From positions 62,001 to 126,000 of the forward strand of contig MPMV01000002.1 in NCBI GenBank assembly GCA_002238685.1: a stretch of 64,000 bases of DNA. Direction: 5' to 3'. Source of the stretch: a bacterium EF100-94H03 bin56 (GTDB lineage: Bacteria > Pseudomonadota > Alphaproteobacteria > SP197). The position numbers and the translations under genes were made by a program. The number at the start of each line of letters is the position of its first letter. Within the stretch, counting starts at the first letter, position 1. Of this stretch, positions 41,999 through 56,263 are shown piece by piece. The notes under the pieces were generated by a model that was not told the DNA's origin, did not search any database, and saw nothing but the letters and a program-made list of their open reading frames with translations.

Positions 41999-43119
41999 TC
42001 TCGTGCCCCTTTGACCAGTGCGCAGGCGGCGGCATCGAAACCGACTTCAAGGCGCGAACCGACAACGGGTTGTCGCGTCGAGGGATCGCTGCGTGTCTTC
42101 ATCGTCAGGACATGGCGTGTCCGGGAATGCTCCAGTTCGGTGATTGTCTCCGAGCCGACGAAGGAGACCGAGACCACCTCGCACTCGATCCGGTTGCAGG
42201 CATCGCCGGCGGCCGGAACGAGAGCTTCCGGGCGCACCGCCAGCGCCAGCCCTTCCCGGACCCGCGGCGGAGGACCATCGACCCTTATCGTGCCGAAGGG
42301 AGTCGAGACCATGGTCGTGTCCTCCCCGGTGCTTTCGATGCGGCACGGCTCGAGGATGTTGCTCGCCCCGAAGAACGCGGCAACGAAGCGGCTGCGTGGC
42401 CGGTAGTAGAGATCTCTGGGCGTGCCGATCTGCTCGATGCTTCCGGACCGCATCACGCAGATGCGGTCGGACACCGTGATGGCTTCGGACTGATCGTGAG
42501 TGACGAAGACGAAGGTGATGCCGCTCCGCCGTTGCACGACCTTGAGGAACTTCTGCATCTGGCGCCGCAAGGTCGCATCGAGCGCGGCGAGCGGCTCGTC
42601 GAGCAGGATGAGACGCGGTTCGCAGATCATGGCGCGTGCGAGTGCGGTTCTCTGCTGCTGTCCGCCGCTCAGTTGCGCCGGATAGCGATCGCCGAGATCT
42701 TCGAGTTCGACAATCCCGAGTGCGTCCTCGACGCGCGCGTCACGCGTCGCCCGGGCAATGCCCCGCACCCGCAGTCCGAACGCGACGTTTTCCCGCACCG
42801 TCAAGTGGGGGAAGAGTGCATAGTCCTGAAAGACGGTGTTGAAGGGACGGCGGTTGATCGGCACGTCGGCGATGTCACGCCCGTCGAACTCGATGCGTCC
42901 GGCCGTGGGCTGCTGGAATCCGGCAATCGTGCGCAGCAGCGTGGTCTTCCCCGACCCCGAGGGGCCGAGCACGGTCAGGAACTCGCCGTTCAGGACGTCA
43001 AGGTCCAGGGGACGAATCGCCTCGAAGTCCTGGAAGCGGACACCCAGCCCGCGGATTCGCAGAAGGGGCGTCCTGTCGCCTGCCACCTCGTGCCTGCTGT
43101 CGGTGTCAGGGGCGTCCAT
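41995..43119 (-). CDS. ABC transporter ATPase, PotA type
   Basis: This ATPase of about 374 residues has Walker A GPSGSGKTT, signature QLSGGQQQRTAL, Walker B LILLDEPLAALD and switch His in FVTHDQSEA. A C-terminal TOBE-type domain follows. The frame is open to 43404, but that part is antisense to the enolase-superfamily gene. The ATG at 43119 (MDAPDTDSR) overlaps that gene's stop by 14 bases. It energises the permeases at 40329-41998. Confidence 0.9.
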   Translation of the reverse strand: MDAPDTDSRHEVAGDRTPLLRIRGLGVRFQDFEAIRPLDLDVLNGEFLTVLGPSGSGKTTLLRTIAGFQQPTAGRIEFDGRDIADVPINRRPFNTVFQDYALFPHLTVRENVAFGLRVRGIARATRDARVEDALGIVELEDLGDRYPAQLSGGQQQRTALARAMICEPRLILLDEPLAALDATLRRQMQKFLKVVQRRSGITFVFVTHDQSEAITVSDRICVMRSGSIEQIGTPRDLYYRPRSRFVAAFFGASNILEPCRIESTGEDTTMVSTPFGTIRVDGPPPRVREGLALAVRPEALVPAAGDACNRIECEVVSVSFVGSETITELEHSRTRHVLTMKTRSDPSTRQPVVGSRLEVGFDAAACALVKGARE

Positions 43120-44284
43120 AGGCGCGCACGGCGTCCCAGTTGATCTCCACCCCGAGACCCGGCCGTGTGGGAGGAAGGATTTCGCCGTTCTCCAGAACGA
43201 GATCCTCCATGGCGAGTTCACGACGGAGCTTCTCGATACACAGCTGCGGCGGAAGGAACTCGACAAAGGCGATTCCGGGGGTTGCGAAGGCCAGATGGGC
43301 GGTGGCGGACAGCGACACACCCGTTTTCCAGCAGTGCGGAACCACCGGCAAGTTCCTTTCGGCCGCCATCGCACACACCGCGCGTGCCTCGCCCACGCCG
43401 CCAACGCGCCCGACGTCCGGCTGGACGACGCCGATCCGGCCGCGCTCGATCAGATCCTCGAATTCCCAGCGGGTCGAAAGCCATTCCCCCGAGGCGATCC
43501 GGAAGGGTGCCCGGGCCGCCAGCCTGGCATGCTCGTCGAGGAAGTCAGGCCAGATTGGAGTCTCGACGAAGTAGAGGTCGAACTCCTCCCAGTCGCGCAG
43601 GACCGACCATGCCGTCTCCGCATCGCGCCACAGGTACTGCACGTCCACCATCAGCGTCATGTCCGGTCCGAGTGTCCGCCGCACCGCCGCCACAACCTCC
43701 GTGTGGCGATCGTAGCTTTCGTTCATGCCGTCGTGAGCGTAGGGGCCGGCCATGGTGCACTCGGCCTTGACGGCTTTGAAACCGAGCTTCTTCGCATTCT
43801 CGGCCGATTGGCAGAGCGCGTCACGATAGGCTTCGAAGCTGCTGCCGGCCGGCTGCAGGGATGCATAGGGAACAAGCGGGGTCGGGCGGGGATCACCGAG
43901 AAGCTTCCACAACGGCTCACCCGCGATCTTTCCGGCGAGATCCCGGAGCGCCATCTCGACAGCACCCAGCGCGTGGATCACCGCACCACGGCGTCCGTTC
44001 ATCGCCGTCATCGTGTAGACATGGTCCCAGAGAGCCTCGATGTCGCGGGGGTCCTTGCCCTTCAGCAGTTCCGCCATGCCGAGACCCATGGTGTGGGTGC
44101 CGGAAGCCTCGATGCAGGCACGTCCGATCCACGGATTGAGATCGCTTTCGCCGTAACCCTCGAGGCCCTCGTCAGTAGAAACGACGACGAGCAGGCTGTC
44201 CTGGGCTGAGGAAGTCAGACCCGGGTCGACGTCGTCGGCAACCAGAACGTGGCACGCGATGTCGGTGATCTTCACTTGCAGCAC
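43106..44284 (-). CDS. Enolase-superfamily (mandelate racemase/muconate lactonizing type) enzyme
   Basis: This 392-residue TIM-barrel enzyme abstracts a proton next to a carboxylate, usually to dehydrate a sugar acid. Metal ligands are Asp214 (LMVDVQYLW), Glu241 (YFVETP) and Glu267 (ASGEWLS). Lys170/Lys173 (KAVKAE) and the His317-Asp290 pair (PHCWKTG; QPDVGR) supply candidate bases, a mandelate-racemase-group pattern. The N-terminal capping domain (1-130) is complete. It sits between binding protein and ATPase genes of the importer, so it very probably acts on the imported solute. With an SMP-30 lactonase and SDR nearby, a non-phosphorylating sugar-acid pathway is the best guess. Confidence 0.85.
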   Translation of the reverse strand: MLQVKITDIACHVLVADDVDPGLTSSAQDSLLVVVSTDEGLEGYGESDLNPWIGRACIEASGTHTMGLGMAELLKGKDPRDIEALWDHVYTMTAMNGRRGAVIHALGAVEMALRDLAGKIAGEPLWKLLGDPRPTPLVPYASLQPAGSSFEAYRDALCQSAENAKKLGFKAVKAECTMAGPYAHDGMNESYDRHTEVVAAVRRTLGPDMTLMVDVQYLWRDAETAWSVLRDWEEFDLYFVETPIWPDFLDEHARLAARAPFRIASGEWLSTRWEFEDLIERGRIGVVQPDVGRVGGVGEARAVCAMAAERNLPVVPHCWKTGVSLSATAHLAFATPGIAFVEFLPPQLCIEKLRRELAMEDLVLENGEILPPTRPGLGVEINWDAVRAYGRP

Positions 44285-46202: not shown

Positions 46203-46245
46203 GTGAGTAAAGCACGACAAATGACACGCAAGGGAACTCTTGACC

Positions 46246-47145
46246 ATGCCGTTCAGGATCATCCGCCACATTGCCGCCGCAGCCCATCTGGGAGAGGCGC
46301 CGCTGTGGCTTCCGGCTTCCGGCGTATTCCTGTGGCTCGATCTTCACGGCCGAGAGGTGCACCGCTTCGATCCGCAAAGTGGAAGCGACCGGGTGGTCGC
46401 GAGCGGATTCACCGAGAACCTCGCGTGTCTTGTTCGCCTGAACGACGGGTTCGTTCTTCTTGTGACGGCGACGCAGTTCCTGCGCCTCGATCCTGCAAGC
46501 GGCGTCACAACGCCTCTGCCTGCAGCACTCCGGCCGACCGCGGGAACCTGCTTCAATGACGGCAAGGTCGCCCCTGACGGGGCCCTTTGGATCGGGACTT
46601 CGGATGTCGGAGAGGTCGATCCGGCCGGATCGCTTTACCGCGTGAGCGCCAGTGGCGCCGAATGTGTTGACCGGGGCTTTGTCGTCGCGAACGGCCCGGC
46701 ATTCTCTCCCGACGGCGGGGCTGCGTACTTTGCCGACACCGTGGGTGGCCGGATTCTGCGCTACGCGCTCGATGCCGCAGGGCGCCCGGTCGAACGTACG
46801 CTGTTCGCGAAGGTTCCGGCCGACAAGGGCATGCCCGACGGCATGACCACCGACAGCGACGGACTCCTCTACAGCGCCCATTGGCAGGGCAGCTGCATCA
46901 GCGTCCGCGATCCCGAAGGCACGACGGTGGAGACGATCGCGCTTCCGGCCGGCAACGTCACGTCCTGCGCTTTCGGAGGCGAGGACGGATCGCTGCTTCT
47001 TGCGACCAGCGCGGCCCGGGACGATGACGACGGTCCCAGCTCACCGCACGGCGATGCGTTCGTGCTCCGTGGCCAGTCCAGGGGGATGCCGGAGCCACAG
47101 TTCGATTCGGCCTGGCTCGGAAGGGAAGGCCCCCCGCAACCATGA
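46246..47145 (+). CDS. SMP-30/gluconolactonase-family protein
   Basis: This six-bladed beta-propeller lactonase (about 299 residues) would open sugar-acid lactones. Metal-site motifs include the Glu of HLGEAPLWLP near the N-terminus, the Asn of CFNDGKVAPDG followed by ALWIGT, and NGPAFSPDG before AYFADT. I start at the ATG at 46246; a TTG two codons earlier is in frame. It is divergent from the GntR-led operon and shares its control region. A dehydrogenase (SDR), this lactonase and the enolase-superfamily dehydratase form a plausible three-step route from an aldose to a 2-keto-3-deoxy acid. Confidence 0.87.
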   Translation: MPFRIIRHIAAAAHLGEAPLWLPASGVFLWLDLHGREVHRFDPQSGSDRVVASGFTENLACLVRLNDGFVLLVTATQFLRLDPASGVTTPLPAALRPTAGTCFNDGKVAPDGALWIGTSDVGEVDPAGSLYRVSASGAECVDRGFVVANGPAFSPDGGAAYFADTVGGRILRYALDAAGRPVERTLFAKVPADKGMPDGMTTDSDGLLYSAHWQGSCISVRDPEGTTVETIALPAGNVTSCAFGGEDGSLLLATSAARDDDDGPSSPHGDAFVLRGQSRGMPEPQFDSAWLGREGPPQP

Positions 47146-47213: not shown

Positions 47214-48272
47214 CTACCGATCACGATGAGCGTAGGCCCGGGCCAGGCGGTCCTTCAGGTCAGCGACGAAACCTGTCGTCAGGGCGGCATCGTGGGCTAT
47301 GGAGTGCCAGAGTCCGACCTGGTTGACATAGGACCGCATCGTCATCAGACCCTCCTCGAGCTGGTCCCACGTCAAGCCCATCGCCTCGGGGCGAATGTCG
47401 AGGCCGATGCCCGAGATGGTATCGAGCATTTCCTCGGCTCCGGCATCGTGCAGCATCGAGCCGACGATGACGCCGAGGCACACGGGCTGACCGTGGAGGA
47501 ACTTCTTCCCCGTCAGTTTTTCCAGTGTGTAGAAGAGGAAGTGGTCGGTTCCCTCGATGTGGCGGGGACACCATCCCGACCCGTGATAGCTCGTACCCCA
47601 TTTCAGTCCGTCGGCCAGTGCGTCGATGCCACGGTCGTTCATTGCACGGATGTTGTCGATGTTCCCGACGACCGTCCTGACCTTCGCCAGCGACTGCCTC
47701 GCCAGGTTCTCGTCGAACCGCCACTTTTCTTCGACCTTCCCTTCCCTCTCGGCATAGCGCCAGTCCAGAACCCCGGTGTGAAAACAGAGGATGTCGCCGA
47801 TTCCCGACCAGTTCAGCGCCGGCGGACAGCCGGCAAGGACATCGTAGTCGATGTAGATGGCCTGTGGCACGGCCCAGCCGCGATAGGCGACCCGTCCCTG
47901 GATCCGGACTCCCGAACGCTGGCCGTAGACGGCATTCACCGACAGGGCCGTCGGCGCCTGGAAGAGCGGCAGGTTCAGGCGCCACGAAAAGTACTTCGCG
48001 ACGTCCAGCGCCTGGCCTCCACCGAGCCCGACGATGGCGCGCACCTCGCCGAGGCTCGCGGCCTCCCGGTCAAGGTCGGCCTGTTCGATCGACCCGCAGA
48101 AGTAGGGCCTGCAGTCGGCGCCGGAAAAATGACGCGAGAAGAGTGGCCAGAGATCGTCCATCGTGACCACGAGGAAAGGCGGATTGACGAAATGGCGGAA
48201 CTCGTCCAGCAGACCGCGACCAAACACGGTCGGAAAGCCGTAGGCAAGGTCCTGGGCGTGATCGTGAGGCAA
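47214..48272 (-). CDS. Glycerol-1-phosphate-dehydrogenase-like (iron-containing ADH fold) protein, copy 1
   Basis: The protein belongs to the AraM/glycerol-1-phosphate dehydrogenase branch of the metal-dependent alcohol dehydrogenases. It has the NAD-loop VGLGGGQALDVAKYFSW, the metal/substrate region SGIGDILCFHTGVLDW and SGWCPRHIEGTDHFLFYTLE. It would interconvert a polyol (or its phosphate) and a ketone. I prefer the TTG at 48272 (SLPHDHAQD context, preceded by GGGAGAG), giving about 352 residues; the frame is open to 48368. It is the last gene of the operon and clearly paralogous to the gene at 51149-52192. Confidence 0.78.
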   Translation of the reverse strand: MPHDHAQDLAYGFPTVFGRGLLDEFRHFVNPPFLVVTMDDLWPLFSRHFSGADCRPYFCGSIEQADLDREAASLGEVRAIVGLGGGQALDVAKYFSWRLNLPLFQAPTALSVNAVYGQRSGVRIQGRVAYRGWAVPQAIYIDYDVLAGCPPALNWSGIGDILCFHTGVLDWRYAEREGKVEEKWRFDENLARQSLAKVRTVVGNIDNIRAMNDRGIDALADGLKWGTSYHGSGWCPRHIEGTDHFLFYTLEKLTGKKFLHGQPVCLGVIVGSMLHDAGAEEMLDTISGIGLDIRPEAMGLTWDQLEEGLMTMRSYVNQVGLWHSIAHDAALTTGFVADLKDRLARAYAHRDR

Positions 48273-48388
48273 ACTGGTCTCTCCCGTGCTTGCGGCATGC
48301 CGGTCGTTCAGACGGCGCCGTGGGTCCTCAATCGTGGATCGGGTTTCGGCGGCTGTCGTGGCCTGCACCGCTGACGCAATTGGCCGCG

Positions 48389-49600
48389 CTACAGGGCGCC
48401 ATCACGGTTCCCCGACCAGCTCAGGATCGCGGCCTCGCGGGCGAGCTTGACATCACTCCAGCTCTGGCGACGGCCATCACCTCGTGCCTGGAAGCGGTCA
48501 ACTTCCTCCCGGATGGCGACGGCGACCGCAGCGGCTTCCGCATCGGTCAGATTGCAGGGGTCGAGGTAGAGTTCCTGCCTCTCGACGAGATCGTCGCGTA
48601 CCACGATCCCGGGAGTCCGGGCGGCAAGCCGGGCGGCCAGTTCCCAGGCATGGAAACCCGAGTTCCGGGGCGCGATGGTGATGCGGAGACGCGTGATCGG
48701 GTTGCCGGTCCAGTCGGCATGGGTGGTGACGCAGACGCCAGGCATGTCCGCGAGTTCGCGCATCCAGTGGGCCACCCGCGTCTCCTCGGCACGCCGGACG
48801 GCGTCATGATCGCGTTTTTCCCACAACTCGAGCGCCGCCATGGCGCCGACAACACTCTCCTTGCCTGCTTTCATCGTCCGTCCGATTCCGCGGTGCTGAA
48901 GATAGGTGGCACGAATGAGATCGGAGCTTCCCGCAACGACGGCGCTGGTGACTCCCGACAGGAACTTGTGGCCGGAATGGATCACGGCGGATGCACCGAG
49001 TTCGATGGGTCCGGTCAGGTCGTGCTCCGAGGCCATGTCGACGATCGCCGGCACGCCATGCTCGCGGCACAGGTTGATGAAGACATCCATGGGAAGCTCG
49101 TTTTCGCGCACGGTATGGTGCGAGACGATGTACATGGCCGCTGCCGCACCAGCCGCCAGAGCGTCGGCGAGGTGCCAGGTCTCGCAGGCCGCAGCGGTGC
49201 CCACGGGAACGACCTCGGCCCCGGCAAGGCGGATCGCCTGATCGATCGGCGCGCCATAGTTCACCATGTGTCCCATGGGCAACAGGACACGCCGCTCGCC
49301 GGCCGCCCAGGGCAGCGCCTCGATCCTTGCCAGATCCGCGCCCGTGAGACATGCGGCGACCGTCTGCGTCATTGCGGCCGCGGAACACGAGGCGATGCAC
49401 CCCGCCTGAGCCCCGGTCACGCGTGCGATAACGGAGCCTGCGCGCGACTGCAGCTCGTCCATGTCGACGAAGGAGGCGAGGATCCGGTCGACGCACGCAC
49501 GTACGTCACAGGGAACCCTCGATGCACCGATGCGGGTCATCGTCCCGGAAGCATTGATGACCGGGGTGAGATGCCAACGGGCGAAGGGGTCGTCTGTCAT
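48389..49600 (-). CDS. SelA-like PLP-dependent enzyme (ammonia-lyase/aminotransferase fold)
   Basis: This 403-residue fold-type I PLP enzyme is in the SelA/DgaE neighbourhood. SelA itself makes selenocysteyl-tRNA, but operon-borne relatives are catabolic, such as D-glucosaminate-6-phosphate ammonia-lyase. The opening VINASGTMTRIGASRVP is typical. The PLP aspartate is Asp188 (AIVDMASEHD) and the Schiff-base lysine is Lys212 (IHSGHKFLSG). SCSAAAMTQTVAACLTG forms the phosphate-binding loop. Its start overlaps the ATPase stop by four bases. A RidA protein in the same operon suggests that it releases an enamine or imine. The substrate is unknown. Confidence 0.8.
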   Translation of the reverse strand: MTDDPFARWHLTPVINASGTMTRIGASRVPCDVRACVDRILASFVDMDELQSRAGSVIARVTGAQAGCIASCSAAAMTQTVAACLTGADLARIEALPWAAGERRVLLPMGHMVNYGAPIDQAIRLAGAEVVPVGTAAACETWHLADALAAGAAAAMYIVSHHTVRENELPMDVFINLCREHGVPAIVDMASEHDLTGPIELGASAVIHSGHKFLSGVTSAVVAGSSDLIRATYLQHRGIGRTMKAGKESVVGAMAALELWEKRDHDAVRRAEETRVAHWMRELADMPGVCVTTHADWTGNPITRLRITIAPRNSGFHAWELAARLAARTPGIVVRDDLVERQELYLDPCNLTDAEAAAVAVAIREEVDRFQARGDGRRQSWSDVKLAREAAILSWSGNRDGAL

Positions 49601-50640
49601 GGCAGCCGTTCTCCGGTCGTGCTGTCGAAAGCGTGAAGACGGTCCGGCCGGAGCGCGAGCGACAGCGTCTCGCCGGCACGGACCACACCGCGTATGTCAC
49701 CGCTGGTCCGAACGGTCAGGTGCGCACCACGGACATTGCCGAGATGGACAAGCGCCTCGTGGCCAAGGTCCTCGATCCTGTTGACGCGTGCCTCACCAAC
49801 CGGGACCGCGCCTTCGGTCAACCCGATCAGGAGATGCTCTGGCCGGATTCCGAGCGTTGATCCACGACCGCGATCGACCGTCGCTGCGGCATCGCCCAGG
49901 AGGTCCTCCGCGTCGAGGAGGTTCATTCTCGGACTGCCGATGAAACCGGCGACGAAGGTGTTCCGCGGTCGTTCGTAGAGTTCGGTGGGAACGCCGACCT
50001 GCATGATCCGGCCCCGGTTCATCACCGCGATCCGGTCACCCATCGTCATGGCTTCGACCTGGTCATGGGTCACGTAGACCGTCGTCGTCGTCAGCTGGCG
50101 CTGCATCTCGGAGATTTCTCCTCGCATCTGAACCCTGAGCTCCGCATCGAGATTGGACAGCGGCTCGTCGAAGAGGAACGCATCCGGCCTGCGAATCATG
50201 GCGCGTCCCAGGGCAACACGTTGCGCCTGGCCACCTGAAAGCTGGCGGGGTTTCCGGTCGAGCAGCTCGCCGAGGCCCAGCGTGTCGGCGACGCGCGCAA
50301 CCTCGGACTTGACGGTGGCGGGATCGGTCTTCCTGACTCTCAGTCCGAAGGAAAGATTGTCGCGCACCGACATGTTCGGGAACAGCGCATAGGACTGGAA
50401 CACCATCGAGATGTTGCGCTGCGCGGGCGACAGATGGTTGGCGCGTTCACCGCCAATCATCAGGTCGCCCGACGAGATGGATTCGAGACCCGCGATCATC
50501 CGGAGCGTGGTCGACTTGGCGCAGCCCGAGGGGCCGACCAACACCATGAACTCTCCCTCGTGGACGTGCAGGTCGAGGCCGGAGATGACCTCGACATCGC
50601 CGTAGCTCTTCGCAACGTCCAGAAACCGGATATCTCTCAT
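49597..50640 (-). CDS. Sugar ABC transporter ATPase, MalK/UgpC type
   Basis: This 347-residue ATPase has signature [13 protein letters not shown], Walker [13 protein letters not shown], switch His in [16 protein letters not shown] and a C-terminal MalK-type regulatory (TOBE) domain. Its Walker A reads GPSGCAKST: Ala41 replaces the usual last Gly of GxxGxGK. The neighbouring residues are normal, and several MalK-like sequences tolerate this. It powers the permeases at 52196-53931, although RidA and dehydrogenase genes separate them. Confidence 0.88.
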
Positions 50641-51152
50641 CGGGATGTGTTCCTGTCCGGGGAGATCGAGACGATCGCATCGATTTCGACGGTGATGTTG
50701 CCGGGCAGGGACCCCATGCCAACTGCCGTGCGCGCATGTCTGCCCCGTTCACCGAAGACATCGCAAAACAGGTTGGAGCAACCGTCGATGACCGCCGGAT
50801 GATCCACGAAATCGGGGCCGGCATTGACCATGCCGAAGACGCGTCGAATCTGCACGACGTGTTCAAGCGAGCCGAGGATTTCCTTCATCACGGCGATCAG
50901 CACGAGTCCGGTTCTCTGCGCGTGGTGGAACGCTTCATGGACCGGAACATCAAGCCCGACTTTGCCGGTCGCCAGTCTGCCGCATTCCAGTAGCGGCCCC
51001 TGACCCGACAGATAGAGCGTCGTGTCGGCGATGGAACCGAGATCGAAATTTCCGACCGGTGCGGGCGCCGCGGGGAGGACATGGCCGAGGACGGCGAGCC
51101 GCCGGTCCGCGACACTCTCCGGGTGAGACGATTCGCGTCGTGGTGTGTTCAT
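50637..51152 (-). CDS. RidA (YjgF/YER057c/UK114)-family protein
   Basis: RidA proteins hydrolyse reactive enamines/imines, for instance those released by PLP enzymes. This member has 171 residues, longer than the usual 130 because of an N-terminal extension. The catalytic-type arginine is Arg141 in ARTAVGMGSLPGNITVE, the family's closing block. LYLSGQGPL is the usual second strand. Its position between the ATPase and a dehydrogenase, with a SelA-like PLP enzyme in the operon, supports a role in finishing that enzyme's deamination. Start and stop overlap the neighbouring genes by four bases. Confidence 0.85.
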   Translation of the reverse strand: MNTPRRESSHPESVADRRLAVLGHVLPAAPAPVGNFDLGSIADTTLYLSGQGPLLECGRLATGKVGLDVPVHEAFHHAQRTGLVLIAVMKEILGSLEHVVQIRRVFGMVNAGPDFVDHPAVIDGCSNLFCDVFGERGRHARTAVGMGSLPGNITVEIDAIVSISPDRNTSR

Positions 51153-52192
51153 GCGGCAAAAGCTCCCTCAATCCTGTCACGGGCAGCGCTCAGGAACTCT
51201 TCTGTCACGTCGAAGTCGTTGGCGATGCCGTAGGCGAGGCTCTCCCGCTCGACGAAGGTCTTCAGCCCGCGCACGGCTTCGAAGACGTCGCGCCACGTCA
51301 CGTTCATGGCGGCGGGGCGAATGTCGAGGCCAAGACGGGTTACCGCGCCGAGCAGTTCATCAACACGCTGACCGTGCATCATCGCGCCGAGAACGAGGCC
51401 CAGACACACCGCCTGGCCATGCAGGAACGTTTTCCCCGTTCCCGCTTCGAGGGCATAGAAGATGTAGTGTTCGACACCTTCGATGTGACGCGGATTCCAG
51501 CCGGCTCCGTGGTAGGAGGCGCCGCCCCATTTCAGGCCATCGACCAGAATCCGGATGCCCCGCGGCGAAAGCGTCCTGATTTCGTCAAGTTCGGCCAGCG
51601 CCGCCTCGGCCTTCGCCAGCGAGATGGCCGCAAGGCTGTCATCGTAGGGCCAGCGTGGCTCGCACTTTCCCCGGGCCTCGGCGTGACGCCAGTCCATGAC
51701 GCCTGTGACGAAGCACAAGACGTCGCCCACGCCGCCAACGTTGAGCGCGCGGGGGGCGGACTCGATGATGTCGAGATCGATGTAGACGGTCTGCGGGACC
51801 GCCCATCCGACATACCTGACGATGCTGTCTTCCCGGATCCCCGCACGATGTCCGAAGACGGCATCGACGGAAAGTGATGTCGGAAACTGGAAGAGCGGCA
51901 GGTTGCGACGCCAGGCGACATACTTGGCGGCATCGATCGCCTGACCACCTCCCAGACCGACGACCGAGGCAACGTCCGCCAGCGTCTCGAGATCGGCTTC
52001 CAGCACAGCACGTTCCATGGAACGCACCATGTAGGGCACGGCATCGTCCGGCAGGGAGTCGCGAAAGAGGGGCCAGAGATCCTCCATCGTCACGACCAGC
52101 ATGTGCGGACGCACGAAGTTCGCCGCTTCACGTAGAAGGTTGCGTCCGAAGACGGTCGTAAACTGCGGGATATCGGATTCCTTGAACGGCAT
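51149..52192 (-). CDS. Glycerol-1-phosphate-dehydrogenase-like (iron-containing ADH fold) protein, copy 2
   Basis: This 347-residue paralog of the gene at 47214-48272 shares VVTMEDLWPLF, VGLGGGQAIDAAKYVAWRRN, GGVGDVLCFVTGVMDWRHAE and SYHGAGWNPRHIEGVEHYIF. The histidines of the last block are the likely metal ligands. Two different copies in one operon suggest two successive or parallel oxidations of related hydroxyl compounds. It begins immediately after the permease gene (three bases) and overlaps RidA by four bases. Archaeal-type lipid synthesis is unlikely in this setting. Confidence 0.78.
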   Translation of the reverse strand: MPFKESDIPQFTTVFGRNLLREAANFVRPHMLVVTMEDLWPLFRDSLPDDAVPYMVRSMERAVLEADLETLADVASVVGLGGGQAIDAAKYVAWRRNLPLFQFPTSLSVDAVFGHRAGIREDSIVRYVGWAVPQTVYIDLDIIESAPRALNVGGVGDVLCFVTGVMDWRHAEARGKCEPRWPYDDSLAAISLAKAEAALAELDEIRTLSPRGIRILVDGLKWGGASYHGAGWNPRHIEGVEHYIFYALEAGTGKTFLHGQAVCLGLVLGAMMHGQRVDELLGAVTRLGLDIRPAAMNVTWRDVFEAVRGLKTFVERESLAYGIANDFDVTEEFLSAARDRIEGAFAA

Positions 52193-52195
52193 GGT

Positions 52196-53053
52196 TCAGC
52201 CCTTGACTGCGCCAAGGGACAGCCCCTTGACGATGTGTTTCTGTGCGGCGACTGCGAACAGCAGCATCGGCACGATGGCAATGATCGACGCGGCTGTCAT
52301 CGCACCCCAGTCAAGCGCCGCATAGCCACGGAAACTCGTTATCCCGAGCGTGACCGTCTCCGCCCTGGAGAATGTCAGGCCCAGTGCGATGGCAAGTTCG
52401 TTCCAGATCCAGATGGCGTTCAGGACGGCCGTGGCAGCCATCCCGGGCAGGGTGCACGGTACGTAGATCCTCGTCAGGATCTGCCAGTTGGACGCGCCTT
52501 CGATGCGCGCGGCCTCGTCGATGGCCGGATTGATCTCGCGGAAGAACGAACTCAGGAGCCAGATCGACAGCGGCAGGACATGCACCTGGTACATGAGGGC
52601 GAGGCCGACATGGGTGTCATAGAGCCCTGTCCACTGGTAGAGAGAGAACATCGGAATGACGAAGAGAAATTCGGGAAGCATGTAGGCAAGGATCAGCCAG
52701 ACGCCGACGAGGTTCCGGCCCCTGATCTTCATCCGAACGATGGCATAGGCGGTCGGAATGGCGATGGCGAGCGACAGGGCCACGCCGATGGCCGTGATGA
52801 TGACGGAGTTCAGGAACGTGTACTTGAACGTCTCGTGGCTCCAGAGCTTGAGGTAGTTGGCCGTTGTCGGATCGAAGATCCAGAGCGGAGGGCTGGCAAG
52901 GCCATCGCGCCTGGACTTGAGCGAGACCGTCAGCACCCAGTAGACCGGGAACAGACTGAACAGGATCATGGCGCCGGTGAAGGCATAGGCCCACGCCCGG
53001 GAGAGGCCTTGTCCCCGACCGTCGTGGAACTGCAGGGCGGTGCGCGCCGTCAT
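52196..53053 (-). CDS. Sugar ABC transporter permease, MalG/UgpE type
   Basis: This 285-residue permease has a first helix AYAFTGAMILFSLFPVYWVL. The EAA loop is INPAIDEAARIEGASNWQIL, followed by the MalG-type tail VTLGITSFRGYAALDWGAMT and then AAQKHIVKGLSLGAVKG. It overlaps the upstream permease by four bases. The CUT1-type transporter would import an oligosaccharide, polyol or sugar derivative. Confidence 0.9.
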   Translation of the reverse strand: MTARTALQFHDGRGQGLSRAWAYAFTGAMILFSLFPVYWVLTVSLKSRRDGLASPPLWIFDPTTANYLKLWSHETFKYTFLNSVIITAIGVALSLAIAIPTAYAIVRMKIRGRNLVGVWLILAYMLPEFLFVIPMFSLYQWTGLYDTHVGLALMYQVHVLPLSIWLLSSFFREINPAIDEAARIEGASNWQILTRIYVPCTLPGMAATAVLNAIWIWNELAIALGLTFSRAETVTLGITSFRGYAALDWGAMTAASIIAIVPMLLFAVAAQKHIVKGLSLGAVKG

Positions 53054-53931
53054 GCGGCGTCTTCACCGCGCCGCTGCAGCGCCTGCAACGCCAAAGAAAT
53101 GACGAGAATAAGGAGCGAGAACAAGATCATCGTCGCCATCGCCTTGCCGATCTGCTGATAGCTGTACGCGGTACGGTAGACGAAGGTCTGCACGACTTCG
53201 GTTGCCAGGGCCGGTCCGCCACCGGTCGTGCCGAAAACGATGTCAAAGACCTTCAGGGTGTCGATGGCGCGGATGATGACGACGGTGATCAGCAGCGAGC
53301 GAAGCATCGGCAGCTTGATGAACCAGAAGATGGTGAACTCGCTCGCACCCTCGACACGGGCAGCCTCGACAGGCTCCGCCGGCAAGCTTCGCAATCCGGC
53401 AAGCATGATGATGAAGACGAAGGCGGTCTGCCACCAGACATCGACCGCGACGATGGATGCCATCGCCGTTTCTGCGGCTCCGTAGAAGGCCGAAGGGCCC
53501 AGGCCGAACACACCGATCAGGTGATTGATGATGCCGAGGAAGGGATCGAACATGACCTTCGACATCAGGGCAACGACGATGCCCGAAACCATGAGCGGCA
53601 GCATGATGACCGCGCGGATAAGATCCGTCCGGATGGCCAGCCTGTCTACTTGCACCGCGAGGTAGAACCCCAGTGCGATCTCGATGGCCGTCGCCGAGGC
53701 GGCGAACACCACCGTGTTCCTCATGACGCTCCAGAACTCGGCGTCGGCGAGAAGGTTGGCATAGTTCGCCCAGCCAACAAACTCGAACTGGTTGCCCCAG
53801 TTCCAGTTGGTGAACGACACCGCCAGTCCGAACCCGACGGGGTAGACTGACGTGAACGCGAGAACCAGGAGGCAGGGCAGGACGAACCAGAAGGCCGATG
53901 CGCTGCCGAGGCACCTGAGCGCAGACGTCAT
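53050..53931 (-). CDS. Sugar ABC transporter permease, MalF/UgpA type
   Basis: This permease of about 293 residues starts at the ATG at 53931, preceded by GGAGAG; the frame is open to 54081 over the end of the binding-protein gene. The first helix is ASAFWFVLPCLLVLAFTSVY. SFTNWNWGNQFEFVGWANYA is the classic MalF-type periplasmic start. The EAA loop is AEPVEAARVEGASEFTIFWF. It pairs with the MalG-type subunit and the ATPase at 49597-50640. Confidence 0.9.
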   Translation of the reverse strand: MTSALRCLGSASAFWFVLPCLLVLAFTSVYPVGFGLAVSFTNWNWGNQFEFVGWANYANLLADAEFWSVMRNTVVFAASATAIEIALGFYLAVQVDRLAIRTDLIRAVIMLPLMVSGIVVALMSKVMFDPFLGIINHLIGVFGLGPSAFYGAAETAMASIVAVDVWWQTAFVFIIMLAGLRSLPAEPVEAARVEGASEFTIFWFIKLPMLRSLLITVVIIRAIDTLKVFDIVFGTTGGGPALATEVVQTFVYRTAYSYQQIGKAMATMILFSLLILVISLALQALQRRGEDAA

Positions 53932-54016
53932 GGTGCTCTCCGGACCGGAAAGCTGGATGAACTTCCCGGAAAGATGCCCCGGATGGCAGGAAATTGCCAT
54001 CCGGGGCGAGGCGCAT

Positions 54017-55384
54017 TCAGTTGGCGAGCATTGTCTCGAAGTCGGCCTGGGCCGAGGCGCCGGCCTCGGCTGGGTCCGCACCGCCGTAGATGTCCTGAAT
54101 CACGTCAACGATGCGCAGCGCGAACTCGCTCCAGCCGGCGCGCTGAACAACCGACGTCTGCGAGTTCGGCATGGCCGCAGCAACGGCGTCGACATACGTC
54201 TGGGGGAAGCTCGCCGCATACTCGGGATCCTGCCACGTCGACAGACGCGGGGCGCCGCCGTGCAGCTTGCCGATGGCAGTCGCGTTGTCGGTGTTCGACA
54301 TGTACTGGATGAAGAGCCAGCCGGCATCGGGCGACGCGGCGTTCTGCGGAATTCCGAAACCCCATTGCCAGTGGGCCGTGTAGGGCGCGCCCTCGGCGTT
54401 GTCGACGGGGATGACCGAGTAGCCGATCCTGCCGGCGACAAGGCTGTCGTCCGGGTTCTCGAAGCCGGGCGCGAAGAGGCTTGCGTCAATGAAGAACGCC
54501 GCACCGCCGGCCATGAAGAACTGCGAGGCATCGGGCCAGTCCATGGCCTGGATGTTGACGGGACCGGCTTTCATCAGTTCCGCATAGTTCGCGAGCCCCC
54601 GCACGATATCGGGATCGTCCATCCTCGGCTTCGACCAGTCGCCGTCGAACCAGACGTTGTGGGGAGCGGAGCGGTCGGCCGCACCGACCGAGTTGTTCAC
54701 GAAACCGGTGACGGTATCGATCAGCGTGTCCGACCGGATGCCACGGAGGACGGCGCCCGCGATGGCGCCCTCGCTTTCCTCCTTCACCTCGCGCGCCGCT
54801 GCGATCAGTTCTGCCATCGTTGTCGGCATCTGGCCGTCAAGATACTGGTTCACGTGATCCATGTTGGCGAACAGGATGTAGGTCTCGAACGATGCCGGGA
54901 TACCGTGGTACTCCCAACGGCCGTCGATGTCGTACTTCGTTGCATCAAGGAAGCCTGCCGGGATGTCATCCAGATTGTAGTCGGGGGCCGTGAGATCGGG
55001 GCTGTCGATGAAACCCTGAAGGGAATGGACGAGGCCATTGGTGTGCTGGGTGTAGGCCGTGGAATCCATCGGCAGGAAGTAGACGTCCATCTGCGAGTTG
55101 CCGCCGGAGCCGCGCAGCGCCACTTCCATGCGGTCGAAGTAGAGATCTTCGGCCATGGTCTGCAGGGTGACGTCGATCCCGGTGTCGGCCTCAAACTGGT
55201 CGAGCACCACACGCACGCCGTCGGTGACGGGATGTTCCGGCATCATGACCGTGATCGACTCTCCCGAGAGCTGGTCCCACGAAAAGTCGGCAGCGGCGAC
55301 CGTGGCACTGACCGCAAGGGCCACCGACGATGCGGTGACCAGCTTGGTCGCTCTGACAAGGGCTCCTCTCCGCGATGTGTTCAT
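54017..55384 (-). CDS. Sugar ABC transporter substrate-binding protein (CUT1 type)
   Basis: This extracellular binding protein (about 455 residues) leads the operon. The ATG at 55384 follows a GGAGG site. The signal has an RR pair (NTSRRGALVRATKLV) and a hydrophobic run ending AVSATVAAADF. The mature part opens ESITVMMPEHPVTDGVRVVL and has the DQFEADTGIDVTLQTMAED and YFLPMDS blocks of family 1 binding proteins. An inverted repeat just upstream is a likely operator for the divergent GntR regulator. The ligand is not deducible. Confidence 0.88.
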   Translation of the reverse strand: MNTSRRGALVRATKLVTASSVALAVSATVAAADFSWDQLSGESITVMMPEHPVTDGVRVVLDQFEADTGIDVTLQTMAEDLYFDRMEVALRGSGGNSQMDVYFLPMDSTAYTQHTNGLVHSLQGFIDSPDLTAPDYNLDDIPAGFLDATKYDIDGRWEYHGIPASFETYILFANMDHVNQYLDGQMPTTMAELIAAAREVKEESEGAIAGAVLRGIRSDTLIDTVTGFVNNSVGAADRSAPHNVWFDGDWSKPRMDDPDIVRGLANYAELMKAGPVNIQAMDWPDASQFFMAGGAAFFIDASLFAPGFENPDDSLVAGRIGYSVIPVDNAEGAPYTAHWQWGFGIPQNAASPDAGWLFIQYMSNTDNATAIGKLHGGAPRLSTWQDPEYAASFPQTYVDAVAAAMPNSQTSVVQRAGWSEFALRIVDVIQDIYGGADPAEAGASAQADFETMLAN

Positions 55385-55422
55385 CGTATCCTCCGTGTGT
55401 TCTGACAGCCTGCTGACCAGGC

Positions 55423-55466
55423 ATTGGTCAACCGGATTTTCCAGGAACGGAAATCGGTTGACCAAT
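55423..55466. promoter_or_regulatory. Perfect 12-base inverted repeat, candidate GntR operator
   Basis: Arms ATTGGTCAACCG (55423-55434) and CGGTTGACCAAT (55455-55466) are exact reverse complements 20 bases apart. Each arm contains GGTCAACC or GGTTGACC, a half-site shape common for FadR-type GntR proteins. The repeat lies 39 bases upstream of the binding-protein gene and 105 bases before the regulator. Confidence 0.65.
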
Positions 55467-55570
55467 TGGCGCAGATGCTCAACCATTTGTCAATTCCCGT
55501 GTTCGTCGCCACGTGAGCATGACGCTGCCCTCCCGGAGCGCGGCCGGAGGGTCATTCGAAAGGAAACGTC

Positions 55571-56263
55571 GTGTCGATTGCCTTTGATGTGACCGACCGG
55601 GTTTATCGGGAGATCCGCGATCTCCTGCGCTCTGGCGACATTCTGCCCGGCCAGAGACTGCCCAACGAGCGCAAGCTGGCCGAGATGAGGGGGGCCTCAC
55701 GCACCCAGGTGCGCGATGCGCTTCTCATGCTCCAGAAGGAAGGGCTGGTCGAACGCAAGATCGGCAGCGGCACCTACCTGTCCGAGCGTGCGCCCCAGAT
55801 CATCGAGCTGGCAGACGCCGCGGTCCACATGTCGCCCGAGCGCTCCCACGGTTTCCACGAGACCCTTGAGGCGCGGCTGCTGGTCGAGCCATCGGTCGCG
55901 GCACGTGCCGCCGAGTCGCCGACACCGCAGTTCTGCACGGATCTCGAGGCGGCGCTGGAACGCATCCTGGCGGCGCCTACCTGGCTCCAGTTCAAGGAGG
56001 ATATCTACGCCTTCTCACGCCTCTACTACGTTGAGGCGGGCAACGACTTCCTGTGCTGGACCTTTGATCAGATTGTGGCCGCCCGTCGCGCGAACAAGTT
56101 TGACGGCGGGAGCGACCAGGCTCCGGTGGCCAACATTGTCCGCAAGCATTTCCACGACCGTCTGTCGAAGATTGCGGATGCCATAGCTTCCGGGGATCCC
56201 CAACGGGCCAGAGCCGAAGTGGAGAGCTTCCTGGTCGCCATGGCCGCTTCGTTGGCGCTTTGA
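55571..56263 (+). CDS. GntR-family (FadR/FCD type) transcriptional regulator
   Basis: This 230-residue regulator is divergent from the sugar-transporter operon. The winged helix is LPNERKLAEMRGASRTQVRD, then ALLMLQKEGLVERKIGSGTYL. The C-terminal FCD-type domain includes ETLEARLLVEPSVAARAAES and VRKHFHDRLSKIADAI, whose His residues match the metal/ligand site. The GTG start at 55571 follows AAAGGAAA. It most likely represses the operon at the inverted repeat between them and is released by a pathway metabolite. Confidence 0.87.
   Translation: MSIAFDVTDRVYREIRDLLRSGDILPGQRLPNERKLAEMRGASRTQVRDALLMLQKEGLVERKIGSGTYLSERAPQIIELADAAVHMSPERSHGFHETLEARLLVEPSVAARAAESPTPQFCTDLEAALERILAAPTWLQFKEDIYAFSRLYYVEAGNDFLCWTFDQIVAARRANKFDGGSDQAPVANIVRKHFHDRLSKIADAIASGDPQRARAEVESFLVAMAASLAL

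Follow-up and report, generated by a model that had tools for sequence, protein, structure and literature searches.

Gene organization of the locus

The window, by which we mean the whole stretch of 64,000 nucleotides that was analyzed, carries a minus-strand operon whose genes follow one another, in the order of transcription, as an ABC substrate-binding protein (54017..55486), two ABC permeases (permease 1 at 53050..54081, with an uncertain frame start, and permease 2 at 52196..53053), a dehydrogenase that we term copy B (51149..52192), a Rid/YjgF family protein (50637..51152), an ABC transporter ATPase of the UgpC type (49597..50640), a SelA/DgaE-like PLP enzyme (48389..49600) and copy A (47214..48272), a Fe-ADH_2/G1PDH-like dehydrogenase of which B is a paralog. 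The nearest solved chains of the binding protein are 5iai, of a sugar ABC transporter, and 4rya, of a sorbitol ABC transporter. By their coordinates, neighbors among the B, Rid, UgpC and SelA-like genes abut or overlap, and the SelA-like gene is separated from copy A by a gap of 116 bp in which no terminator-like site was found on the minus strand; six consensus matches on the minus strand lie farther upstream, within operon genes. From this layout we infer a single transcript. A scan for sigma-70-type promoters found none against 1.6 expected, and an Rfam scan of the window gave no matches at gathering thresholds. The start of copy A is taken as the TTG at 48272, preceded by GGGAGAG, and is best regarded as probable, since the frame stays open as far as a GTG at 48368.

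Divergent from the operon lies a GntR/FCD regulator (55571..56263, plus strand) and, convergent with copy A, an SMP-30/gluconolactonase-like gene (46240..47145, plus strand). Past the latter come a GntR regulator, a PotD-like binding protein, an enolase-superfamily protein resembling sugar-acid dehydratases that belongs to an adjoining cluster (43106..44284, minus strand; under all curated cut-offs) and an ABC ATPase frame, for which PotA is our own provisional name.

Family placement and the metal site

Both dehydrogenases pass the gathering score of Pfam PF13685 (Fe-ADH_2), A with 49.2 and B with 59.3 bits against 28, and their AlphaFold2 models (mean pLDDT 93.9 and 95.2, respectively) find as nearest solved folds AraM 9h4x, 3ce9, the G1PDH chains 5fb3/4rgq and GldA 5zxl, at Z of about 30-32.5. 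The Asp/His/His metal triad of the Fe-ADH_2 superfamily is present in each by alignment, D160/H244/H260 of A and D157/H242/H258 of B matching D171/H254/H271 of GldA, which we take to be the metal ligands of that enzyme. Purifying selection acts on both copies, with dN/dS of about 0.08-0.09 for A and 0.12-0.16 for B (two ortholog pairs each). Glycerol dehydrogenases are described in PMC5125639 as holding zinc by two His and one Asp. In one clade of the family (L047, L049-L067, L069-L072, L074, L075, L085:9956-11020 and L131, 30 family rows; loci and genomes are cited by L and G numbers), the first metal ligand is Glu instead of Asp (e.g., GICE for GIGD), giving Glu/His/His as aligned in E. coli AroB E184/H247/H264.

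The best NCBIfam match of both copies is NF002022 (G1PDH, EgsA-AraM), at 98.6 bits for A and 120.8 for B versus a cut-off of 413, each thus more than 290 bits short. The glycerol dehydrogenase model NF006941 is missed as well (40.1 and 45.1 versus 336 bits), as is the 3-dehydroquinate synthase model TIGR01357 (B 42.7 versus 305 bits; A unlisted at E 0.001), and by these missed cut-offs a plain G1PDH or glycerol dehydrogenase is ruled out. A further difference lies around the first metal His, which in the compared G1PDH, AraM and 3ce9-type sequences sits within SxxEHxxxH, a motif read from those sequences and distinct from any curated signature. This stretch is replaced by EGTDHFLFY in A and EGVEHYIFY in B; Ser has become Glu and the second His has become Tyr in 82 of the 82 family rows readable at both columns, whereas the Ser and His are kept in all seven outgroup rows and in four PDB stretches. 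The lost His is present in E. coli AroB (H251), whose counterpart in dehydroquinate synthase presumably touches the substrate phosphate. We read the Glu/Tyr replacement, from the alignment, as a probable loss of phosphate recognition, which would fit an unphosphorylated substrate imported by the ABC system.

It is highly improbable, given the shortfall in score, the Glu/Tyr replacement and the purifying selection on A, that both copies make or oxidize glycerol-1-phosphate with B as the real enzyme and A as a spare, even though the G1PDH model is the best NCBIfam match and G1PDH/AraM provide the nearest folds. Judged by sequence, A and B are not G1P dehydrogenases. The earlier note had described the two genes, at 47214-48272 and 51149-52192, as diverged G1PDH-like paralogs. 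Both open reading frames are indeed found on the minus strand, and BLASTP aligns their products with 174 of 337 residues identical (52%, E=4e-124), which makes them real paralogs and not near-identical copies; the G1PDH likeness survives at the level of fold and superfamily, as the structure matches attest, but not as family membership, so that this label is superfamily-deep only. A recent duplication is ruled out by the 52% identity and the separate, supported clades described below, and catalytic loss in A by the retained metal triad, which B keeps as well, together with purifying selection.

An Asn/Asp difference at the GldA-121 position

With the metal triad common to both, the comparison of active sites singles out one substrate-side residue: N113 of A and D110 of B both align with D121 of E. 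coli GldA, and the position holds Asn in 16 of 16 A-type and Asp in 16 of 16 B-type sequences. This fixed split, for which engineering supplies a precedent at the same position, is in our view the main new point of the analysis. PMC4731958 counts Asp121 among the sites that bind glycerol and reports Cys there in a second glycerol dehydrogenase. Across 13 A rows and 15 B rows, 120 columns reach a conservation of at least 92% within each clade, and 14 of them differ between the clades; these 14 include, besides GldA-121, the deletion of one residue in A at 225 and the pairs T242/V240 and D243/E241, which adjoin the first metal His.

The precedent is the crystallized protein 6csj, whose title names a double mutant of a polyol dehydrogenase from Bacillus coagulans that acquired activity as a D-lactate dehydrogenase; counted along its sequence, residue 121 is N and residue 245 is S, against D and F in E. 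coli GldA (5zxl). The wild-type B. coagulans enzyme presumably has D121 and F245, and we assume the protein of 6csj to be the enzyme of the report cited in the next sentence. A mutated B. coagulans glycerol dehydrogenase reduces pyruvate with NADH, as stated in PMC4222570. Given that 6csj is also changed at 245, it does not establish that D121N alone suffices. A plausible inference is that Asn relieves a substrate carboxylate of repulsion by Asp. Asn at GldA-121 also occurs in the AraM-like proteins L012 and L013, which come from other genomes of the class and family, and is therefore not unique to the subfamily. A third, AraM-like family member, with Asp (L095), lies on the window's own contig about 11 kb past the window end (G000:C91:137201-137647).

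Distribution, phylogeny and pairing

The family is thinly spread. At 1e-50, two of the 385 genomes in a class sample contain a match, one of them the window's own; in a genus sample three of ten do, the window's own included, and each of the three has both copies. A contig scan yielded 63 loci, nearly all in metagenome assemblies, under titles that range over Pseudomonadota, Chloroflexota, Planctomycetota, Verrucomicrobiota, Bacillota and others; among plasmid records there were only distant relatives, in nine records, none covering 80% of the query.

In a tree of 70 rows (out of 92, after removal of 17 near-identical rows and five that were partial, duplicate or foreign), the B sequences form a clade of 15 rows (100/98) and the A sequences another of 13 rows (100/100), both lying within a group of 32 rows (100/99). 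The minimum number of Asn/Asp changes is five in the subfamily rows and eight with the seven outgroup rows. In a planctomycete-titled assembly, L069:5655-6707 and L131:7233-8507 are sister paralogs that differ at GldA-121, apparently through a later, separate Asn/Asp split. In another tree, of 39 rows and including AraM, archaeal G1PDH stretches, GldA and AroB, the subfamily fell on one side as 25 rows (90/92), apart from all four, with a deep placement made unsure by the very long AroB and GldA branches.

Genomes were searched whole for 50 of the 63 loci, the remainder being L032, L033, L034, L055, L056, L059, L061, L063, L064, L066, L071, L079 and L087 (L033 corresponds to G007 and L034 to G001, L079 comes from the assembly of L077, and L032 fits G425). 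One match was found in 31 genomes (26 Asn-type, 5 Asp-type), two readable copies in 16, and a fragment as the second piece in three; G169, G176 and G186 were accordingly excluded from the 19 two-match genomes, their second piece being fragmentary or without the site. With the three genus members included, 18 of the 19 readable two-copy genomes have a copy of each type, Asn and Asp. Only G177 (titled Rhizobium sp. Q54) departs from this, as its copies L077 and L079, on two contigs, are both Asp-type. Roughly five lineages account for the pairs: the alphaproteobacterial A/B pair; L085, whose Asn copy falls in another clade; the Chloroflexota L080/L082/L083/L090, which have a distant Asp partner; L069/L131; and L047 with L134, a distant, long-branched partner. 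Counted by lineage on the 70-row tree, about five of six are Asn+Asp by our own tally, a number that is only suggestive, as chance could give the same.

This recurrent co-occurrence in alphaproteobacteria, the 18 of 19 pairings, the common operon and the octameric state of glycerol dehydrogenase, as given in the title of PMC10939272, would all suit a single dehydrogenase assembled as a heteromer, with an Asn subunit altered in catalysis or regulation. Such a heteromer nonetheless seems rather improbable, since A retains all three metal ligands, the single-copy genomes comprise both types, and an A-type copy is the sole match in five assemblies, G146, G147 and G148 (titled Deltaproteobacteria), G150 (titled proteobacterium; these four at 79-82% identity) and G425 (95%). 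Conversely, a B-clade member stands alone in G173 (titled Deltaproteobacteria) and in G191, where B, UgpC and SelA-like are followed at locus L093 by an SDR-like frame and the contig contains no A. Five assemblies with A but without B and two with B but without A argue against an obligate heteromer, with A- and B-type always together, which we rule out on these single-copy drafts, although in a draft each absence is weak evidence.

Two of the lone A-type settings are worth describing. The A-type copy of L032, 95% identical, lies on a contig of 4.5 kb from a genome placed in a different family of the class, beside SMP-30 and GntR genes and with no SelA-like gene found beside it, and may reflect either transfer or a misbinned contig. 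In L038 and L040, a lone A-type copy adjoins a GH3 glycosidase, ABC permeases and a distant SelA-like protein without the His pair.

Neighboring genes and the PLP enzyme

The gene order B, Rid, UgpC, SelA-like, A is repeated in L033, L034, L036, L037, L041 and L078, most of which have an extra gene before A; an SDR lies between the PLP gene and A in L035, L036, L037, L041, L044, L078 and L132. An SMP-30-like frame is found too in L037 (48 bits) and L132 (90), and the enzyme of the enolase superfamily also in L033, L034 and L085. At about 45% identity, L085 has both copies together with Rid, SelA-like, SMP-30, enolase and PotD/PotA-like genes. The window's SelA-like protein scores 277.9 on the broader model TIGR01437 versus a cut-off of 385.3, and 243.9 on a narrower model.

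Other lineages vary this theme. Many Chloroflexota copies adjoin a GFO/IDH/MocA oxidoreductase, a cupin and a DegT/StrS aminotransferase, and in the Bacillota L089 and L092 the copy lies beside a class III aminotransferase; L080 is beside GH4 and SIS proteins, and L084 beside a mannitol dehydrogenase and an FGGY kinase. A PLP enzyme of one of these kinds is found no more than 10 kb away at 31 of 38 loci, versus 2 of 37 control windows (loci with less than 5 kb on either side were left out, so that 38 of the 63 were used, as were 3 of 40 control windows shorter than 15 kb), a comparison biased by five queries drawn from the same loci, by the close kinship of many loci and by controls from two genomes, and thus to be read as a tendency, not a rate.

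These surroundings raise the idea that Asn113 of A recognizes an amine or imine and not a carboxylate, which would make A an amino-sugar or aminocyclitol dehydrogenase next to PLP enzymes. Three PLP families (SelA-like, DegT/StrS and class III) adjoin Asn-type copies across phyla, and the Rid protein fits amine chemistry; we nevertheless think this idea unlikely, for the Asp-type copies of Verrucomicrobia (L074, L075) are also beside DegT and class III aminotransferases, and no precedent for Asn in this role was seen.

A proposed pathway with two substrates

The explanation that we favor is that A and B probably act on two compounds of one breakdown pathway. They would belong to an uncharacterized subfamily within the G1PDH/glycerol dehydrogenase superfamily, made up of NAD(P)-dependent dehydrogenases of polyols or sugars, and the ABC importer of the operon would bring in an unphosphorylated sugar or (amino-)polyol, on which the two enzymes may serve different redox steps of one catabolic pathway. 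B, with its substrate-side Asp, would be expected to work on a neutral hydroxyl substrate; Asn in A removes a negative charge and may thereby admit a carboxylated intermediate, e.g., a sugar acid or a 2-keto/2-hydroxy acid. Nitrogen would then be removed by the DgaE/SelA-like PLP enzyme with the Rid protein. The order of the pathway, the substrate classes, the cofactor and co-transcription are all deduced from the genes and their arrangement. To the specific version, in which the substrates differ and B takes a neutral (amino-)polyol or sugar and A possibly a carboxylated intermediate, we give roughly even chances. It has against it that Chloroflexota often carry a lone Asn-type copy next to an aminotransferase, and that the neighbors examined in that phylum included no recognized sugar-acid enzyme. 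The earlier note had offered different substrates or a heteromer as alternatives; the fixed Asn/Asp residues and purifying selection on both copies favor the former, and the (draft) assemblies with A but not B, or B but not A, tell against the latter.

A bolder extension, which we put forward as speculation with a modest chance of being right, is that Asp-to-Asn at GldA-121 repeatedly split an ancestral polyol-type dehydrogenase into neutral- and acid-substrate enzymes kept side by side, a natural counterpart of the laboratory glycerol-to-lactate conversion, and that the operon encodes an oxidative pathway, so far undescribed, for amino-polyols or amino sugars.

Comparison with known systems

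The G1PDH superfamily is poorly assigned outside archaeal lipid synthesis. A limited search of the open-licence literature found no description of the subfamily, and this gene set is absent from the papers found on the pathway, on G1PDH structure and on the GldA change D121A; a term search for active-site residues had no result in PMC10939272 or PMC9728185. The subfamily can be recognized by a short signature, the Glu and Tyr around the first metal His. Because an Asn and an Asp form occur naturally together in one operon, the idea that a single residue sets the class of substrate is open to direct testing, and the engineered mutant offers a point of comparison.

Among systems with which the operon can be compared, the reference PLP enzyme of PMC9529869 shares with the window's SelA-like protein a His pair including His-163 and the SGxK lysine; in the reference enzyme, His-163 is the proton donor, Arg-226 is near the substrate carboxylate and Arg-346 belongs to the phosphate cluster. 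In the window's SelA-like protein, Ser225 aligns with Arg-226 and Cys349 with Arg-346; elsewhere the Arg-226 position holds R in L043, L044 and L132 and K in L085. The reference system has a PTS, and the window operon an ABC importer.

EgsA/AraM (4rgq, 5fb3, 9h4x) share with A and B the fold (Z 31-32.5), the metal triad, a glycine-rich GGG motif and a DW motif, yet structural alignments give 16-25% identity, A and B fall far under the curated cut-off, and Ser and His near the metal in EgsA/AraM are Glu and Tyr in A and B, whose operon, unlike those systems, would import a sugar-like solute. The best sequence match among solved chains is 3ce9, a putative glycerol dehydrogenase of Clostridium acetobutylicum (E=1.3e-40, profile of A3), which with its relatives L007, L008, L138 and L188 forms a separate clade in which, unlike in A and B, SxxEHxxxH still has its Ser and His. 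GldA and the mutant 6csj belong to the same superfamily as A and B, but at 15-19% identity and with A and B under the glycerol dehydrogenase cut-off; and while 6csj is a laboratory product, the Asn of A is a natural, fixed state.
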